Below, in pieces: positions 8,058 through 19,641 of a stretch of DNA of 64,000 nucleotides. The stretch is taken from NCBI RefSeq assembly GCF_001890765.1, contig NZ_KV878783.1, positions 1,696,977-1,760,976 of the forward strand. Reading direction: 5' to 3'. A program made the translations under genes and the position numbers. The stretch is from Spirulina major PCC 6313. GTDB taxonomy: Bacteria > Cyanobacteriota > Cyanobacteriia > Cyanobacteriales > Spirulinaceae. Position 1 is the first letter of the stretch; each line of letters begins with the position of its first letter. The notes beneath the pieces are model-generated. The model searched no databases. It saw only the letters and a program-made list of their open reading frames with translations, and was not told the origin of the DNA.

Positions 8058-9248
8058 GTGAATAAATGTAACTCGCCTTTACACGCCATCGAAACAGGAC
8101 AGTGGTTCAAGCTGATTTGCGGCGCAAGCTTTCAGCATTTACCGGCTGTGCGCAACCTTGCCCTTGCCTACACCTTGGCGGGTGCTGACTGTATTGATGT
8201 GGCTGCTGACCCGGCTGTCATTCAAGCCACTCAGGTTGCGTTGCGGGTTGCGGCCCAGTTGCGCGACCCAGTCCCTGGACAGAACGGTGCGGGACAGGCT
8301 CAACCCTGGTTGATGGTCAGCCTCAATGATGGGGTTGATCCCCACTTTCGCAAGGCGGAATTTGACCCGAACCTCTGCCCGGTAGACTGTCCGCGTCCCT
8401 GCGAGACGGTTTGTCCCACGGCTGCGATCGCACCCTCAACAGCAGGTGTAATCGATGCCCTGTGCTATGGCTGTGGGCGGTGTCTGTCCGTTTGTCCGAG
8501 CCAACTAATTGCAGCGCGATCCTATGTGTCTGCCCCGGAGGTGGTAGTGCCGCAACTCGTTGCCCTGGGCATTGATGCGGTGGAAATTCATACGCAGGTG
8601 GGCAACCTAGATGGGTTTAAGCGAGTCTGGCAGGTGTTGCGCCCTTGGTGCGATCACGGTAGTCACCCTCACGGTAGTCACCCTCACGGTAGTCACCCTC
8701 ACGGTAGTCACCCTCACGGTAGTCACCCTCACATCAAACTCTTAGCCATTAGTTGTCCGGATCATCCCGATCTCTTGCCCTACTTGCGGAGTTTGGCCGA
8801 TCTCCTTGATCCGTTGCCCTGTGCCTTGCTGTGGCAAACCGATGGCCGACCCATGAGCGGCGATATTGGCCCCGGCACGACCCACGCCAGCATCAAACTG
8901 GCGGCGAAAGTGCTGGGGGCAAACCTCCCCGGTCAGGTGCAACTGGCGGGGGGAACCAATGCCCAAACCGTGCCAAAACTGGCAGAGCGCGGTTTGCTGG
9001 CCCCTGGGTCAATGTTTGTGGCGGGGGTAGGCTATGGCGGCTATGCGCGTCAACTCCTGGCCCCGGTGCTGGAATCCTTGGCGCGGCGTTCCTCGTCCCG
9101 CCTTGAAGATCATCCCGATCTGCTCTGGGAGGCGGTGCGTCTGGCGGAAACACTCGTGCAGCCCCTGAAGGCTGGACAGTCTCAATCCCGGCGCGATTCC
9201 CATCCCTCCGATGGCCTCAGAATCGAACCGTCTGTCCGTTGCTTTTGA
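8058..9248 (+). CDS. ldpA: Circadian input iron-sulfur protein LdpA
   Basis: LdpA is a cyanobacterial iron-sulfur protein that senses redox state and conveys light-dependent period information to the Kai clock. The protein has two ferredoxin-like cysteine sets, C107/C111/C115/C119 and C136/C139/C142/C146 (YGCGRCLSVCPSQ), as in the family. The GTG start at 8058 is supported by AAGGAG five bases upstream. At 396 residues it appears longer than I recall for LdpA. Part of the excess is a five-fold HGSHP repeat at residues 200-224. The tnpB element end lies directly upstream, so the promoter is probably rearranged. The ycf45-like gene follows after 19 bases. Confidence 0.9.
   Translation: MNKCNSPLHAIETGQWFKLICGASFQHLPAVRNLALAYTLAGADCIDVAADPAVIQATQVALRVAAQLRDPVPGQNGAGQAQPWLMVSLNDGVDPHFRKAEFDPNLCPVDCPRPCETVCPTAAIAPSTAGVIDALCYGCGRCLSVCPSQLIAARSYVSAPEVVVPQLVALGIDAVEIHTQVGNLDGFKRVWQVLRPWCDHGSHPHGSHPHGSHPHGSHPHGSHPHIKLLAISCPDHPDLLPYLRSLADLLDPLPCALLWQTDGRPMSGDIGPGTTHASIKLAAKVLGANLPGQVQLAGGTNAQTVPKLAERGLLAPGSMFVAGVGYGGYARQLLAPVLESLARRSSSRLEDHPDLLWEAVRLAETLVQPLKAGQSQSRRDSHPSDGLRIEPSVRCF
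8655..8729 (+). repeat. In-frame 15-bp minisatellite inside ldpA (5 perfect copies)
   Basis: The unit CACGGTAGTCACCCT occurs five times without a mismatch. It encodes HGSHP five times at LdpA residues 200-224. The unit is a multiple of three, so copy-number change keeps the frame. The perfect copies point to recent or ongoing expansion. Confidence 0.97.
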
Positions 9249-13547: not shown

Positions 13548-13955
13548 TTAGGAACTGTGAAAAGGGTTGACGATGTTTAGATTTTCAATTGTTGAATATC
13601 CAAAATCTTCTGTATAGATAGTTTCGATTTTGGCATCTAAACAAGCTGCAATAATCATTGCATCCCAATGTGACAGGCTAAAACGGCTCATTAAATTTTC
13701 AGCCCGATCAATCACAGCCCAATTTGGCAAAATAGTGTACCAAACTTGTTGCAAATCTCGAATATATTGATAGGATTTTTTTCTGTCATAACCCAGTGAC
13801 TCTAATTTACGACTCGCTGCTAAATACTCACATGCAACTTGCCAGATCAAAGCACCATCTGTCAGGGAAGAAACCAAGGAAGCGGCGATCGCTTGTTTGG
13901 CAAGATCACGGGGATCATGAACATAAATCAGGATATTAGTATCAACGGCGTTCAT
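13548..13955 (-). CDS. PIN-domain toxin (VapC-like)
   Basis: PIN-domain toxins are magnesium-dependent ribonucleases. The 135-residue protein from ATG 13955 starts MNAVDTNILIYVHDPRD, with the first acidic residue in VDTN. It continues with an E in ACEYLAASR and the D pair in SLSHWDAMIIAACLDA and YTEDFGY, the usual four-acid set. An upstream in-frame start adds ten residues but runs deeper into the antitoxin. The toxin start overlaps the antitoxin end by 14 bases, typical of a toxin-antitoxin operon. It is AT-richer than its neighbours, which suggests acquisition. Confidence 0.85.
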   Translation of the reverse strand: MNAVDTNILIYVHDPRDLAKQAIAASLVSSLTDGALIWQVACEYLAASRKLESLGYDRKKSYQYIRDLQQVWYTILPNWAVIDRAENLMSRFSLSHWDAMIIAACLDAKIETIYTEDFGYSTIENLNIVNPFHSS

Positions 13956-14184
13956 GTAGCATATCTCTCGTGAATTTTGAAGCATGAGAGGGAAGGGAAT
14001 TTTCTTGCATTCGCTTCACCAGTTGCGTTAAAAAGTGTTGCTTTGTGGCTTGATCCGTGATTTGAGGAGGGATGATTTGAGGTGTTTTAATCAGAATTTC
14101 AACTTCCGCCCCTTCAGGTAAATCACAGGCTGTTTGTAGAATAAATGTGCCTTGATGGTAAATCGCTTTCACGGTTTGAGGCAT
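13942..14184 (-). CDS. Antitoxin of the PIN toxin (DUF104 family)
   Basis: The 80-residue protein begins MPQTVKAIYHQGTFILQTACDLPEGAEVEI, which matches the DUF104/AF2212-like antitoxin pattern of a short beta-rich DNA-binding N terminus. Its C-terminal helix (residues about 40-80) probably wraps the toxin. It is the first gene of a two-gene unit with the PIN toxin and would repress that operon. GGAG lies about ten bases before the ATG. Confidence 0.8.
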   Translation of the reverse strand: MPQTVKAIYHQGTFILQTACDLPEGAEVEILIKTPQIIPPQITDQATKQHFLTQLVKRMQENSLPSHASKFTRDMLHERR

Positions 14185-14251
14185 GGGATAAGCTCCATCG
14201 TTGAAGAGTTAAGGGTGAGTGGGTTTCGGTTTGGGGTGAGCAATCCCCATC

Positions 14252-14377
14252 CTATCGTTTACTGGGAGGGAGCGTGAGGGGTGGCGGGGCGATGGGCATT
14301 TGGGGCGGGGCGGTGCGCCACATCAGGGCGATTTCGTCGGGGGTGAGTTGGTAGGCTTGGTTGATTAGGTGGTTTAA
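14252..14377 (-). pseudogene. Remnant A: 3' end of a type IIG restriction-modification gene
   Basis: On the minus strand this stretch encodes, still in frame, LNHLINQAYQLTPDEIAL then MWRTAPPQMPIAPPP, and continues LTLPPSKR to its own TAG stop (14252-14254). It corresponds to the last 30 or so residues of the intact enzyme at 16334-19594, with a different tail. The upstream part of the gene is absent. It lies in the 316-base gap between the first and second toxin-antitoxin modules. Confidence 0.85.
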
Positions 14378-14500
14378 TAAAACCAGACATTTGAAACACC
14401 CACTCCAACTCAAGATTAACCTAAGCCCCTTGCTTGTGAAATCGCTGTCTTGGCTGTCCGAATACCACGCCCATCCAGGCTAATTCTGCACAAACAAATT

Positions 14501-14737
14501 ATGGAAGCCCTCGAAATCGCGGCGATCGTTGACGATCACGGTAATCTCCAACTTGAAGAACCTCTAAAACTCGCGGCTCAACGTCGAGTTCGTGTGATTG
14601 TTCTGCTTGAGGATGATCCCGATGATGAACCGAAAACAGCCGTGTTAGATGATTTACGTCAAGGATGGCATGAAGCCAAAACCGGCCAAACGCTTCCTCT
14701 TTCTGAGTTGTGGGCTGAGGATGAATCTGGTGAGTGA
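14501..14737 (+). CDS. Putative antitoxin for a RelE/ParE-type toxin
   Basis: The 78-residue protein from ATG 14501 reads MEALEIAAIVDDHGNLQLEEPLKL and has a beta-rich N terminus followed by an acidic, helical C terminus (DDPDDEPK, LPLSELWAEDESGE). This is the layout of small cyanobacterial antitoxins located before RelE-like toxins. It overlaps the toxin gene by 17 bases. A longer in-frame start at 14450 is possible, but the extra N terminus is basic and lacks family resemblance. No clear ribosome-binding site is seen. Confidence 0.7.
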   Translation: MEALEIAAIVDDHGNLQLEEPLKLAAQRRVRVIVLLEDDPDDEPKTAVLDDLRQGWHEAKTGQTLPLSELWAEDESGE

Positions 14738-15068
14738 GTCCTACCCTGTGGAGATTGAACTCTCAGCGATGTTTATTCGCCGTGTTCGTACTCTGCAAAA
14801 GCGTTATCGTAGTATTCGCCAAGATATCGAGCCAGTTATTCAGAAACTTCAAGCTGGAGAAGTCTTAGGCGAACAGATTCCTAATGTTGGTGATGCGGTC
14901 TTTAAAGTTCGGGTCAGAAATCGAGACATCCAAAAGGGAAAACGTGCCGGATACCGTCTGATCTACTACCTTAAAACCAATACAAAAATCATTCTCCTCA
15001 CTCTTTATTCAAAATCTGATCAATCTGACATTACCGCCCAAGAAATCCGGGATATTTTGGCAGAGTAA
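14721..15068 (+). CDS. RelE/ParE-family toxin
   Basis: The 115-residue protein resembles RelE/ParE (HigB-like) toxins, most of which cut mRNA on the ribosome while ParE members poison gyrase. Family-like parts are FIRRVRTLQKRYRSIRQDIEP, GDAVFKVRVRNRDIQKGKRAGYR, then LIYYLKTNTKIILLTLYSKSDQSD, giving the basic beta-sheet core. ATG 14721 (MNLVSESYPVEIEL) is preferred because it produces the usual N terminus and a short overlap with the antitoxin. It points toward, and converges on, the type IIG gene. Confidence 0.82.
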   Translation: MNLVSESYPVEIELSAMFIRRVRTLQKRYRSIRQDIEPVIQKLQAGEVLGEQIPNVGDAVFKVRVRNRDIQKGKRAGYRLIYYLKTNTKIILLTLYSKSDQSDITAQEIRDILAE

Positions 15069-15087
15069 TGACTAACGATCGCGCTCT

Positions 15088-15246
15088 CTACTCATGCGGC
15101 GGCGTGATGGGCATTCGGGGCGGGGCGGTGCGCCACATCAGGGCGATTTCGTCGGGGGTGAGTTGGTAGGCTTGGTTGATCAGATCGTTTAATTCTTGTT
15201 CGAGATGCGCGATCGCACTATTGCGGGTTTGGATGGTAAGGGCGAG
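15088..15246 (-). pseudogene. Remnant B: 3' end of a type IIG restriction-modification gene
   Basis: The minus strand encodes in frame LALTIQTRNSAIAHLEQELN, DLINQAYQLTPDEIAL and MWRTAPPRMPITPPHE, then a TAG stop (15088-15090). It is nearly identical to the end of the intact gene at 16334-19594 but has a different last four residues. After 15246 the similarity breaks; a short match (CTGCCT) suggests a deletion junction. It lies between the second and third toxin-antitoxin modules. Confidence 0.85.
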
Positions 15247-15282
15247 TTCGCTGCCTCACAGATCCATGATTTTCTGGTTCAA

Positions 15283-15333
15283 TTTAGACAGGATTACTTT
15301 CTGATATAATAAAAATGTACTCCCAAAGGGGGT
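15283..15333 (+). promoter_or_regulatory. Promoter and strong ribosome-binding site of the Panacea module
   Basis: TTTAGA (15283-15288), a 16-base spacer and a perfect TATAAT (15305-15310) make a sigma-70-type promoter. AAAGGGGGTGA (15325-15335) is a near-full Shine-Dalgarno sequence about six bases before ATG 15341 and decides that start over the GTG at 15332. The promoter begins 37 bases past remnant B, so the module carries its own expression signals. Confidence 0.75.
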
Positions 15334-15340
15334 GATTATA

Positions 15341-15937
15341 ATGTCTCACGATATCATTTTCAGCTTTAACGATATCAAAGCTACACAGGCTGCGGCTTTT
15401 TTAGTGAAGTTGCACGGTCAACCCTCTATGAGCTACTTAGGGCTGCTTAAGATGCTCTATGTTAGCGATCGCCGATCTCTGGAATCTAGTGGTTATCCGA
15501 TCACTGGCGATGAATTTGTTTCCATGAAGTATGGCCCCGTTTTGACCCGCATCTATGATTATGTAAAGCCCCAAGGGGGACGTGTTTTTTCTGACTACTG
15601 GTCGAGCTATATCGCTACAGTTGCCTCTCCTCGAAATCCTCAAAAAAAAGTTTATATCACGTTAATTGATGATCCGGGTGATGATGAACTTTCACCGATA
15701 GAAGAGGACATCCTGAGAGCCGTATATCAAGAATTTGGACATCTTGATCCGTTTAAGGTTGCGGAATGGACTCACTCGCTGCCGGAATGGATCGATCCAC
15801 AAACATTAGATCGAAAAGTTGTCAAGATCAGCATTCTTGAACTGCTCAATTATTTAAATATTTCCGATGAACAGATTCAAGAAATCCGAGAAACTGCTGA
15901 ACGAGAACGCTATTTAGATGAGGTTCTCAATGGCTAG
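15341..15937 (+). CDS. Panacea-domain (DUF4065/SocA-like) antitoxin
   Basis: Panacea-domain proteins act as broad antitoxins that pair with many unrelated toxins. The 198-residue protein has the family core KATQAAAFLVKLHGQPSMSY, LGLLKMLYVSDRRSLESSG, then ITGDEFVSMKYGPVLTRIYD. The helical C-terminal half ends in ERERYLDEVLNG. It overlaps the next gene by eight bases, so the two are translationally coupled. Its DNA is AT-richer than the flanking conserved genes. Confidence 0.82.
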   Translation: MSHDIIFSFNDIKATQAAAFLVKLHGQPSMSYLGLLKMLYVSDRRSLESSGYPITGDEFVSMKYGPVLTRIYDYVKPQGGRVFSDYWSSYIATVASPRNPQKKVYITLIDDPGDDELSPIEEDILRAVYQEFGHLDPFKVAEWTHSLPEWIDPQTLDRKVVKISILELLNYLNISDEQIQEIRETAERERYLDEVLNG

Positions 15938-16331
15938 GTTTTCGATTAATCTGGGTGATATTTTCTTATTAAATACAGGAGCGACTAAACCGCATTGGTA
16001 TATTGCGATCGCTCCTTTTTTATCGGAAGAATATATTTTTGTGAATGTTTCAACCTGGCGCGAGGGGAGCCAGAGTAATGATGAAACTTGTATTTTAAGA
16101 CCAGCCCAACGAATGCCGAAATTCATCAGGCATAAATCATTTATCGCCTATCAATATGCTAGGAGTTTCACAGCGGATCAACTTGAAAAATTCATTATTC
16201 CAGATTCTCCAATTCCCTACGATACGCTTGATCCGATGAGTTTAAAACGGATTCAAAGAGAAAGTTTACAAGCAAAAAGACTCAAAAATAAATATCTCAA
16301 AGCACTTAAAGCCTATTTGGGTGTTGACTAG
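15930..16331 (+). CDS. Putative toxin partner of the Panacea antitoxin
   Basis: I do not recognise the family with certainty. The 133-residue basic protein begins MARFSINLGDIFLLNTGATK, followed by PHWYIAIAP and YIFVNVSTW. That alternating beta pattern resembles PemK/MazF ribonuclease toxins, whose first strand reads GDI. The C-terminal third is a lysine/arginine-rich helix (SLKRIQRESLQAKRLKNK). ATG 15930 is chosen because GAGG lies seven bases upstream. ATG 15918 lacks any. Position behind a Panacea gene is the main ground for calling it a toxin; the MazF-like fold is inference. Confidence 0.6.
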   Translation: MARFSINLGDIFLLNTGATKPHWYIAIAPFLSEEYIFVNVSTWREGSQSNDETCILRPAQRMPKFIRHKSFIAYQYARSFTADQLEKFIIPDSPIPYDTLDPMSLKRIQRESLQAKRLKNKYLKALKAYLGVD

Positions 16332-16333
16332 GA

Positions 16334-19300
16334 TTATGGAGGCGGCGGGGCGATGGGCATTCGGGGCGGGGCGGTGCGCCACATCAGGGCGATTTCGTCG
16401 GGGGTGAGTTGATAGGCTTGGTTGATCAGGTCGTTTAATTCTTGTTCGAGATGCGCGATCGCACTATTGCGGGTTTGGATGGCGGGGGCGAGGTCGTTGT
16501 AGGCTTCGAGGGCGTGGCGGCGAGCGGTGGGGCCGAAGCTGCTGCCTTTGGGTTGACGTTTTTTCAGTTCTTTAATGAAGTCGTCTTCGCTGAGTTGGCT
16601 AAAGTCTTCGAGTTTGCGGCCAGGTTTCGCAATGTTGTGTTCTGTGCGAAACCAGTTGATCAGGTCGCGGTGGCTCTGTTGATTCTGTTGAGTAAGTTCG
16701 ATCAATTCAGCGACGTGGGGTTCTACTTGGGCGCGAATTTCTGGGGTTGGAGGTGCGATCGGTAAGGTTTCAAATAAATATCCCATTGGACTAATCGAAC
16801 CTGATAACATTCTTGTGAAATATCGATGGCTATACCACCAAATCAAAGGAGAGTTCAAACACGCGACTAAATAAAAATCACTACACGGCAAAATGAAAGT
16901 TTTATCATTTCCATAGCATCCTGACTCATCAAAAGCATACTGTGGAAGTGTTTGAATGACTTGGTAAAATAGCTTGGAATTCTCGAAACTATCATAATAA
17001 GCACACGCCCGAAGCTCCCACCAATACTTTCCTTGATCACTTCGTTTTTTGAGTTTCTTTTTGAACTGAATTAAGTGATCATATAGTTGGGGATAATTTC
17101 CTTTAAAAATTCCTTCTGCTTCTTCCAGCGATTTTGCACTACTCCATTTCCAAGATTTATTAGCACTTGATTGTATTAGAATTATCCAGAGATTTTGCCA
17201 TTCTGGAGACCAGCGTTTAATATCTTGGCCGCGTAGATAGGGCTTAATGATTTCGGCGGATTTTGGATCGGCTTGAATTAGTTTATTTTTGGTGTCATTG
17301 TCGATTAAAAATGCTTCATTAAATCCGGTTAAAACACCTCGATAGGGTTTAACCCCAGCAAACTCTTTTAACGGCACACCCACAGCGCGGATTTTGTCCA
17401 TGAGGTGATCCACATCTGGGGGTTCGAGGCTCCAGGCTTGCTCAGAAAAACGAGACCAAGGGACAGGATAGCCCGATTGGGTCACATATTGGGGGAGGTT
17501 AATTTGGGGCAAATCTTCGCGGGGAACCGGGCAAATTGTGACCGGATGATCAGGGTTTGGGGACTCCTCACGCCGCGCCACAATAATACAAGGAAACGTA
17601 TCCGCATCAGGGAAAATTGGCGCGTGACCAAAATCGATAATTTCCTCCATCACCACCCGCTCCCGGAAAAAGCCCCGCAACCCCTCCCCATAGCCCGCCC
17701 GCATCCATTTATTCGTCACAATATAAGACAACATCCCCCCCGATTTGAGCAGATTCACCCCCTTTTCATAAAAATAAGTGTAGAGGTCTGCCACCCCATC
17801 ATAGGTCGCGTAATGTTCCTGTAAATAAGGCTTAAACGGCGCGATATATTCCTGACGCACATAGGGCGGATTGCCAATCACCACATCAAACCCCCCCGCA
17901 TTCATCACCCCCGGAAACGCCGCCCCCCAATCCAACGCCAACGGGTCAACCTTGCGGTCTGCAATTAACGAATTGCCTTGGCGAATATTGCCGTCTAAAT
18001 CCGCTAACTTTTTTCCCTTTTGCGCCGTTTGTAACCAGAGCGATAACTTTGTGATTTCCACCGATTCCGATGACAGATCCACCCCGTACAAATTTCCCTG
18101 CAAAATCTGCCGATACACCCCCGCCTGATCAAACTCCTGATCTAAATAGAGATACGCTTGACGATAGTCCTGCACCAAAAAATCAAACGCCGCAATCAAA
18201 AACGCCCCCGACCCACAAGCCGGATCGCACACCGTCAACGGTTTTAAAACCTCATCTAAATAGGTCTGCCAATCCGCCGAACTCTCCAACTCAGACCGAC
18301 CCAAAACGGCCACCTTACGCCGCTCCAAATAGCCCCCCACCGTCACCCCCACGATATACCGCGTAATGTAGGCCGGAGTGTAGAAAACCCCCTGCTTTTT
18401 GCGCTGGCCCTGCTTCGCGTTGTAGGTTTCATCTTGGGCGAGCGATCGCAACTCCTCCAAATCCGTCACCGACTGCTCAAAAATCCGCCCCAACACATCC
18501 ACCGAAACCTCATCGGCATAATCGTATTGCGTCAACCCATTCATGGCACTACAGAGGGAATCATTGACCGTCAATTCCTCATCCAAAAGCGGATCATGAC
18601 GGAACAAACCGCCGTTATATTCCGGAATCGGCGGGTCATCGGGGTTGCCCTCATTCACCCAGCGAAACACCGCTTTGTAGTTGTCCCAAATCGGGCGGGG
18701 ATAGTAGGGATCATGGTGATCGTGGGCTTTGCGAATCGTTTGGCGCGGCAATAGTCCCCGGTCTTCACAAAAAGCGATAAACAGGATGCGATCTAACACC
18801 TTTTGGGCCTTTTCCACGAGGATCAGATCGCGGTTTTTGCGCCGTAGTTTGCTCACCCGTTGGAAATGTTGGGTGAGTTCAAGGCGCAGGGCTTTGTATT
18901 GGCGGTAAAGTTCTTCCGTGACGATCGCTTCCGTTGCGTCGGATTCTTGGAGGAGGCGATCGATTCGCGACTCTTGATCAGCGGTGCTGGGTAAAAAGTT
19001 TTTGCGATAGAGCAGAAAAAAGAACTGTTTAAACTGCTCTAGATCCGCGAGCTTTTCTAACTCGAACACTTGAGCAGAGGCGTAGGTTTTGTCCACATGA
19101 TAGAGGCGCAATTCTCGATAATTCGAGACAATCACCCACTTGCAGCCAGCGGTATGGTTGGCATACCGCCAGCCCTGATCCACGGCGGATTCTTGGCGGC
19201 TGCCGGCTTTGTCGAGGTTGGTTTTAGATCCTTTCAGTTCGATGGGGGCAATGATCCGCCCCGTCAGTTTTTGACCGTCTGGCGGGTCGGAAAAAAAGCC

Positions 19301-19594
19301 GATCGCCGCATCCGCCGCGCCGCCCCTAGCGGCAATCGTCGCTTCGGCGTGAATATCCCAGGTCTCCCCCGAACCACTCATCACGGAACGATAGCCCAGG
19401 ATGGTCTGAAAGATGTCGCGCAAAAAATCGCCGTGGAGGGAGACTTCTTTGATTTTGTCGAGGGTTCCGCTCTGGATGCGATCGCTCCAGCGGTTGAGGA
19501 GGGCGTGGCGATCGCTCAAATCCAGGGGAAAACTATAGGCTCGCACCGAGTTTTTGAGGAGCTTCGGTTGAAAGAGGGGGATGAGACGCGACAT
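16334..19594 (-). CDS. Type IIG restriction-modification enzyme (nuclease-methylase-specificity fusion)
   Basis: One 1086-residue chain should both cut and adenine-methylate DNA. An N-terminal PD-(D/E)XK nuclease is suggested by AADAAIGFFSD then APIELKG at about residue 115-121. The methylase core has motif I DPACGSGAFL (about 460) and motif IV NPPYVRQE (about 573). A TaqI-like target-recognition region spans about 750-940, followed by coiled-coil-rich helices. The recognition region (about 16780-17340) is clearly AT-richer than the rest of the gene, as if swapped. ATG 19594 is preferred over TTG 19600. Two copies of the gene's 3' end lie downstream at 14252 and 15088. Confidence 0.88.
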   Translation of the reverse strand: MSRLIPLFQPKLLKNSVRAYSFPLDLSDRHALLNRWSDRIQSGTLDKIKEVSLHGDFLRDIFQTILGYRSVMSGSGETWDIHAEATIAARGGAADAAIGFFSDPPDGQKLTGRIIAPIELKGSKTNLDKAGSRQESAVDQGWRYANHTAGCKWVIVSNYRELRLYHVDKTYASAQVFELEKLADLEQFKQFFFLLYRKNFLPSTADQESRIDRLLQESDATEAIVTEELYRQYKALRLELTQHFQRVSKLRRKNRDLILVEKAQKVLDRILFIAFCEDRGLLPRQTIRKAHDHHDPYYPRPIWDNYKAVFRWVNEGNPDDPPIPEYNGGLFRHDPLLDEELTVNDSLCSAMNGLTQYDYADEVSVDVLGRIFEQSVTDLEELRSLAQDETYNAKQGQRKKQGVFYTPAYITRYIVGVTVGGYLERRKVAVLGRSELESSADWQTYLDEVLKPLTVCDPACGSGAFLIAAFDFLVQDYRQAYLYLDQEFDQAGVYRQILQGNLYGVDLSSESVEITKLSLWLQTAQKGKKLADLDGNIRQGNSLIADRKVDPLALDWGAAFPGVMNAGGFDVVIGNPPYVRQEYIAPFKPYLQEHYATYDGVADLYTYFYEKGVNLLKSGGMLSYIVTNKWMRAGYGEGLRGFFRERVVMEEIIDFGHAPIFPDADTFPCIIVARREESPNPDHPVTICPVPREDLPQINLPQYVTQSGYPVPWSRFSEQAWSLEPPDVDHLMDKIRAVGVPLKEFAGVKPYRGVLTGFNEAFLIDNDTKNKLIQADPKSAEIIKPYLRGQDIKRWSPEWQNLWIILIQSSANKSWKWSSAKSLEEAEGIFKGNYPQLYDHLIQFKKKLKKRSDQGKYWWELRACAYYDSFENSKLFYQVIQTLPQYAFDESGCYGNDKTFILPCSDFYLVACLNSPLIWWYSHRYFTRMLSGSISPMGYLFETLPIAPPTPEIRAQVEPHVAELIELTQQNQQSHRDLINWFRTEHNIAKPGRKLEDFSQLSEDDFIKELKKRQPKGSSFGPTARRHALEAYNDLAPAIQTRNSAIAHLEQELNDLINQAYQLTPDEIALMWRTAPPRMPIAPPPP

Positions 19595-19641
19595 AATCAA
19601 ACTCGCAGAAATACGCTGCTATCCTAGCGCGAGGGGCGTGG

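Follow-up and report, generated by a model that had tools for sequence, protein, structure and literature searches.

The cyanobacterium Spirulina major PCC 6313 (Spirulinaceae) carries, on contig NZ_KV878783.1, a type IIG restriction-modification (R-M) gene behind whose 3' end three modules of toxin-antitoxin (TA) type are lined up, interspersed with copies of that same 3' end. The DNA considered here, henceforth the window, is a stretch of 64,000 nucleotides (nt) of this contig (positions 1,696,977 to 1,760,976 of the forward strand); the array and the IIG gene occupy positions 13548-19600 of it (Table 1). Here, I describe the locus, compare it with IIG genes and TA modules of other genomes, and weigh the ways in which such an array might have been built.

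The IIG gene and the array behind its 3' end

The gene matches the PADLOC model REase_MTase_IIG (E 5.2e-144, residues 49-1073) and the Pfam families Eco57I (2.5e-45) and TaqI_C (3.4e-8); judged by its sequence, it is of type IIG layout, with an N6-methyltransferase, a specificity domain and a predicted nuclease region in one protein. Across genera, no stretch of the family is better conserved than its last 25 codons (90% amino-acid identity), which end in (K/R)TAPPRMP.

Comparison of the IIG gene with the downstream region by BLASTN reveals two additional versions of its 3' end, both in the orientation of the gene: R2 (149 of 158 nt identical, 94%) and R1 (94 of 99, 95%). Both keep the IIG reading frame, and the C-terminal tails differ among the three copies, the functional end of the gene itself (copy G) included. 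The two copies, their frame and their differing tails had been recognised in a first-pass annotation of the sequence, as had the fact that the copies begin at nearly one point: their boundary near the stop codon is indeed shared within a few bases, the other boundary lying 99 or 158 nt in. The same BLASTN comparison found no further upstream IIG sequence joined to R1 or R2 in the downstream DNA, and no copy longer than 158 nt. R1 and R2 are unlikely to be expressed genes, because R2 is preceded by an in-frame stop and R1 has a TTG as its sole start.

Read along the minus strand, the order of the array is copy G, the Panacea pair (opposite strand), R2, the RelN/RelE pair (opposite strand), R1, and the PIN/AF2212-like pair (same strand), the TAA of copy G and the Panacea partner's stop codon lying 2 bp apart. 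Direct repeats adjoin two of the modules, namely 96-99 nt around RelN/RelE and 158 nt around the Panacea pair. Profile searches bear out that the three TA-type modules downstream of the IIG gene are unrelated to one another, being of the PIN/AF2212-like, RelN/RelE and SocA/Panacea kinds; the first two, as adjacent genes of known families, are predicted type II TA modules. No family in Pfam, PADLOC or NCBIfam matches the Panacea partner, whose homologues, not counting itself, number 8, with Spirulina and Coleofasciculus among them; compared with solved structures it gave one chance-level match (E 0.56), and a fold model of it, with a mean predicted local distance difference test (pLDDT) score of 44.8, was too poor and was discarded. 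It possibly represents a new Panacea-linked toxin family, as far as its sequence tells. Among the seven genes of the array, profiles of Pfam, PADLOC and NCBIfam gave no match to a recombinase, transposase or integrase.

Table 1. Features of the array in the window (positions from the first letter of the window)
Feature	Position	Strand	Basis and remarks
Type IIG restriction-modification gene	16334..19600	-	intact frame, 1088 amino acids; PADLOC and Pfam
Copy G, functional IIG 3' end	16340..16499	-	tail PPPP; from sequence
R2, copy of the last 158 nt of the IIG gene	15096..15253	-	94% identical; tail PPHE
R1, copy of the last 99 nt of the IIG gene	14280..14378	-	95% identical; tail PPPLTLPPSKR
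Panacea partner, predicted toxin	15930..16331	+	133 amino acids; overlaps Panacea gene
SocA/Panacea antitoxin-like gene	15341..15937	+	Pfam SocA_Panacea 1.6e-21; frame opens at GTG 15332
Promoter-like site TTTAGA-16-TATAAT with TG, between R2 and Panacea gene	15283..15310	+	weak; total count equals shuffles
RelE-family toxin	14721..15068	+	Pfam RelE 1.3e-7, above cut-off
RelN-family antitoxin	14501..14737	+	NCBIfam NF050107 1.4e-27, above cut-off
AF2212-like (DUF104) antitoxin	13942..14184	-	Pfam PF01954 1.1e-6; strand of R1, just behind R1
PIN-domain toxin	13548..13985	-	Pfam PIN 1.1e-8

Over 84 aligned sites R2 differs from G at 2 positions, and R1 from either R2 or G at 4, whereas between these three copies and the IIG ends of six other genomes there are 13 to 27 differences. 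Since the copies are mutually the nearest kin among the ends compared, they have the appearance of duplicates made from the end of the resident gene, and this alignment points to a single recent gene end as their apparent source. The IIG gene of a genome of the same genus (G002) is cut by a contig end; its 3' end is absent from the assembly and so stands outside the comparison.

Repeats of this kind are scarce in the surrounding DNA. With criteria of at least 45 nt, 85% identity and a distance of 250-2500 nt, the sole direct-repeat pairs in the window are those among G, R1 and R2, and over 1.2 Mb of the chromosome that holds the window the same scan yielded 11 pairs, of which 2 are low-copy. 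The two low-copy pairs (258 nt and 77 nt; contig C2 of the window's genome, G000, at 637697-638885 and 716655-717538) both involve, as identified by eye, a Uma2-like gene, one repeat copy lying inside the first gene while the second gene lies between its repeats, a hint that Uma2-like genes may be mobile in a like manner.

TA genes, IIG remnants and flanking repeats in other genomes

Of 52 IIG ends fetched, 38 were used, the window included, and the open reading frames (ORFs) within 1 kb of the stop were inspected; the 14 ends dropped were near-identical neighbours or lay next to a contig end (L142, L144, L153, L156, L159, L167, L169, L172, L173, L176, L180, L181, L184 and L236). TA genes of unlike families occur within 1 kb behind the IIG stop at 14 of the 38 loci (the window, G000, as well as G063, G008, G044, G065, G142, G308, G366, G372, G013, G263, G594, G231 and G702), compared with 2 of 29 loci on the 5' side (G159 and G712; Fisher p 0.008). 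In the stretch 2.5-3.5 kb further on, they were seen at 2 of ~35 loci, both being parts of the G000 and G500 arrays (p 0.0015 against 14/38); the control ORFs inspected were the shorter ones (35 of 49 and 31 of 45). The bias towards the 3' side holds when shared haplotypes are merged (12/36 vs 2/29, p 0.014) and when G065 and G594, the loci with the least certain TA calls, are left out (12/38, p 0.016). Among 25 of 44 families listed, the Pfam tally on ORFs behind the stop comprises Phd/YefM (5), PIN (4), ParE (3) and VapB (2), with one each of YoeB, HepT, Panacea, DUF433, HicA and nucleotidyltransferase. In one genus, loci in front of the same gene hold a Phd/ParE group, VapBC, DUF104/PIN or DUF559, the homology of unlike alleles stopping within ~16 nt past the IIG stop codon. 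The distribution of TA genes, present behind about a third of the IIG ends, suggests that TA modules land preferentially at the end of the IIG gene.

At the G263 locus (L146 7260-9240), a VapB gene is split by ~1 kb of DNA, and a DUF104/PIN pair stands between the IIG stop and VapB.

A profile of the IIG C-terminus (A1, 64 residues) was searched against overlapping sets of genomes and matched 55 of 388 genomes of the order, 28 of 386 of the phylum, 10 of 63 of the order of G500 and 20 of 61 of the family of G044. Besides full genes it picks up short 3' pieces, and two loci repeat the layout of the window: in G702 the gene end is followed by a DUF2281/PIN pair and an 81-nt copy of the IIG end (89%), and in G500 by a 498-residue pentapeptide protein, a 102-nt copy of the IIG end (91%) and then PIN-type modules. 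The DUF2281/PIN pair of G702 is missing from G712, which is unlike G702 in other respects too. The first-pass annotation had proposed looking for IIG 3' ends without the upstream gene; such remnants do exist, some beside TA modules and others with none nearby. A remnant stands directly before a TA module in G714 and G671 and a short way before one in G709, while in G699 an IIG gene without its middle is followed by a TA pair. G500 and G671 have a remnant-plus-TA stretch of 1052 nt in common (88%), and an unusual ATGGGT change is common to the G714 remnant and G500; to judge from these sequences, the three may be non-independent and go back to one common remnant.

Two of these loci deserve separate mention. 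That of G714 (L239 1835-6242) holds another large restriction-like gene, DUF4160/DUF2442-like genes, the IIG 3' remnant and a PIN-like pair; in G712 (L235), a palindromic insert of ~95 nt with a short duplication, likely a miniature inverted-repeat transposable element, lies in the last codons of the IIG gene.

As a control, a 5' profile (A5, 66 columns, with a mean identity of 71% equal to that of A1) was run on the same 388 and 63 genomes and matched 39 and 6 of them, 42 of the 45 matches covering the profile. Detection of cut 29-codon fragments at 23 bits succeeded for 16 of 18 genes on the 5' side and 25 of 25 on the 3' side. Remnants of at least 29 codons number ten at the 3' end (R1, R2, G193, G233/G066 taken as one, G159, G500, G699, G714, G671 and G706) against one or two at the 5' end (G690 and the degenerate G241), p being 0.012 or 0.039. 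The count falls to 8 vs 1 or 2 (p 0.039 or 0.11) if G500, G671 and G714 are taken as one or if R1 and R2 are omitted, and with both reductions to 6 vs 1 or 2, which is not significant; the excess of 3' over 5' remnants is thus suggestive. These counts omit, on the 3' side, G709, G361, G238 and G702 (shorter than 29 codons), G184/G381 (not the 3' end), G290 (a split gene) and weakly matching pieces of related IIG genes, for instance G145, G210 and G250, on the 5' side G131 (a weak match from another gene), and on both sides longer truncated genes. By eye, the G690 5' remnant is followed by a DUF433/DUF5615 pair.

Orphan 3' ends as such were considered as a signature of a mobile cassette and rejected, several of them looking like plain deletion scars without TA genes nearby (G193, G233/G066, G159 and G361), whereas the orphan end of G290 belongs to a gene split by an apparent transposase gene. 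The 5' ends of some pieces cluster near codon 49 from the end (R2, G193, G233/G066, G184/G381), a small sample of which no use was made.

Along a different line, the modules themselves can be followed. Relatives of the window's PIN/DUF104 module occur in many genomes at 68-76% DNA identity, and one of them, in G002 (L262), lies between 184-nt direct copies (95%; 1317-1500 and 2187-2370) of the 5' portion of a ribbon-helix-helix-like antitoxin gene; one of these copies adjoins the toxin stop codon. Flanking direct repeats were found at 7 of 23 PIN-module copies and 5 of 26 other TA modules (three of these 26 being the window's), that is at 12 of 49 TA modules, against 10 of 447 control ORFs. 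A filter that dropped palindromic, dispersed-looking or marginal cases (4 of the 12 TA cases and 4 of the 10 controls, two of these controls being themselves TA genes) left 8/49 vs 6/443 (Fisher p 1e-5), or 6/46 without the window's three modules (p 3e-4). Once the sister species L277 and L278, probably one event, are merged, the figures are 7/48 (p 6e-5) and, also without the window, 5/45 (p 0.002). The repeats of L263, L269, L277 and L278 are 50-74 nt long and weaker.

How the array may have arisen

I lean, with restrained confidence, towards the reading that two of the predicted TA modules were inserted serially at the end of the IIG gene, each duplicating 99-158 nt of its target. Because R2 is closest to G, albeit by few sites, the RelN/RelE module would probably have come first, with a target of 99 nt, and the Panacea module second, into the then-current gene end, with a target of 158 nt. 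Each break would have fallen a few codons before the stop, so that the gene would read a new short tail from the flank of the insert; the changed tails would follow from this geometry, the break lying ahead of the old stop and reading running on to the next one. The older ends would be left behind as R1 and R2, decaying. A break further inside would cut into the conserved C-terminal 25 codons and so destroy the gene, which would account for the common boundary without any special site. Recombination between the repeats would free the toxin, and repeats would therefore persist longer around TA modules than around ordinary genes. The duplicated lengths vary: 99 and 158 nt in the window, 81 nt in G702, 102 nt in G500 and 184 nt in G002.

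More tentatively, and with a good chance of being wrong, the scheme could be widened: cyanobacterial TA modules would be mobile without a transposase, by long target duplication, with IIG 3' ends as preferred targets, and the repeats, locked by addiction, would turn the array into a ratchet that guards the gene.

Several observations weigh against serial insertion with target duplication. At the locus itself, the PIN module lies beyond R1 without a flanking repeat, and no allele of it with a single 3' end and no insert was found, so that the duplication is something I infer; the interval between phosphohexomutase and nagA, which the first-pass annotation had singled out for comparison with related genomes, was of no help, these flanks being found together in none of 12 other genomes of the family, many of them draft assemblies, and no empty allele being seen. 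A donor of 3' ends from the same species would also fit, 84 sites being too few to tell. Elsewhere, the insert of G500 is a non-TA gene, and only 3 of 26 TA modules (25 in IIG loci) stand between copies of the IIG end: most TA modules arrived, or were kept, with no duplication to be seen. Across 0.8 Mb made up of the window and further loci, most of them IIG loci, a scan gave 15 repeat pairs outside the window, ~10 of them not around TA genes, and several of the repeats counted at TA modules are short or intergenic and maybe dispersed repeats. The control ORFs were drawn from the IIG loci rather than from the genomes that carry the 23 PIN-module copies, and the TA calls per locus were made partly by eye, with Pfam tallies (25 of 44, 37 and 55 families) in support. 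Lastly, the reading is held less firmly because RelE and Panacea relatives make up only 4 of the 28 module loci examined (see below) and G500, G671 and G714 possibly share one remnant.

The alternative that survives best, if still rather unlikely, is that each module travelled joined to the IIG 3' end of a donor, and that a single crossover (or one homologous and one illegitimate end) replaced the end of the resident gene, the old one being left behind. The same product would be expected; within a genus, the last 25 codons with their high amino-acid identity would be a usable anchor, and the 1052-nt stretch common to G500 and G671 speaks in its favour. None of 28 loci with relatives of the modules (L259-L286), searched up to ~1.5 kb on each side, has an IIG 3' end beside it, so that a TA module and IIG end as a travelling cassette go unsupported there; these loci are 24 PIN, 3 RelE and 1 Panacea, weaker matches having been left out, and the small share of the last two kinds leaves the donor some room. 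The three copies are, moreover, closer mutually than to the ends of six other genomes. Gene conversion of the 3' end between genera was considered and rejected: in the last 25 codons same-codon use averages 0.52, compared with 0.46-0.52 in other parts of the gene, although a few pairs are high (G063-G412, G000-G204). Since same-codon use is not raised, the conservation of the end lies at the protein level, which likewise speaks against a donor from another genus. The array model of the first-pass annotation is thereby divided: the idea that unrelated TA modules arrived repeatedly at a single gene's 3' end, with recurrence in other genomes, finds support, whereas its proposal that each module brought its own new 3' end is less supported, given the module relatives and the kinship of the copies.

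It is improbable that several tandem full-length IIG genes decayed, with TA modules filling the gaps. IIG genes do decay elsewhere, with internal deletions or breaks in G263, G280, G699 and G712; yet at R1 and R2 nothing is left upstream of the last 158 nt, although those ends are still 94-95% identical, and short 3' remnants outnumber 5' ones at similar detection. The first-pass annotation had named such independent decay as the outcome that would undo its model, and it was not seen.

A dedicated site-specific system, with a recombinase and the IIG 3' end as its attachment site, would account for the tight boundary near the stop codon and for the unlike cargo behind it in one genus, but is highly improbable in view of the lack of a recombinase among the array's seven genes, of the varying duplicated length (81, 99, 102 and 158 nt) and of TA modules with local duplicates also at unrelated targets. 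It is equally improbable that nothing but a defence-island effect is at work, in which TA and R-M genes cluster by selection and the duplicates are unrelated local duplications: TA and R-M genes are well known to cluster side by side, most TA modules here lack flanking duplicates and repeat pairs surround other genes too, yet the defence-island view predicts neither copies of a 3' end nor TA genes mostly on the 3' side, and low-copy pairs are rare (2 in 1.2 Mb) while two consecutive ones bound two modules here.

Outside the array, the window holds at 8600-8740 five tandem 15-nt units encoding GSHPH, within a frame (8058-9248) for an iron-sulfur protein by its cysteine motifs.

Relation to known systems and meaning

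Integrons, up to superintegrons, hold cassette arrays with TA genes, and in both cases unrelated TA modules are arrayed between repeats; unlike integrons, the array described here has no integrase, and its repeats are coding sequence of a neighbouring gene and of varying length.

A closer parallel is offered by R-M systems, which duplicate a long stretch of their target on insertion (Nobusato et al. 2000; Furuta et al. 2010, as cited in PMC3874152, PMC3031569 and PMC1643837). According to the excerpted text of these papers, the likeness extends to a small unit of addiction type, direct repeats of the target 'in the order of 100 bp', their variable length and the use of different targets; the array has, in addition, no transposase or integrase. 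Unlike what those excerpts describe, it is TA modules that are inserted here, an R-M gene is the target (the IIG 3' end), and the insertions are stacked. In Microcystis aeruginosa, a ParDE-like TA pair stands behind an orthocaspase gene with identical 152-bp direct repeats (PMC7935541); by the excerpt of that paper, this too is a cyanobacterial TA pair just past the stop of another gene, with repeats of similar length, but the first repeat starts 14 bp past the stop, the repeats carry a 16-bp inverted repeat, and the excerpt does not describe them as copies of a gene end. Among the literature matches listed there was no description of long target duplication by TA modules, the Microcystis pair being the nearest. 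By analogy, the array may be regarded as a known process, the long target duplication of R-M systems, with TA modules as new inserts.

Chromosomal TA modules have been called highly mobile, and the fixation of acquired systems is, in the excerpt from PMC2654758, not yet understood. How small chromosomal TA modules free of transposase enter new places is an open question. If they insert as R-M systems do, the flanking repeats would be a direct and countable footprint of their arrival. Such a mode of entry, if true, would help to explain the pile-up of TA genes behind one family of restriction genes, and the notion that addiction keeps the repeats in place would become testable.

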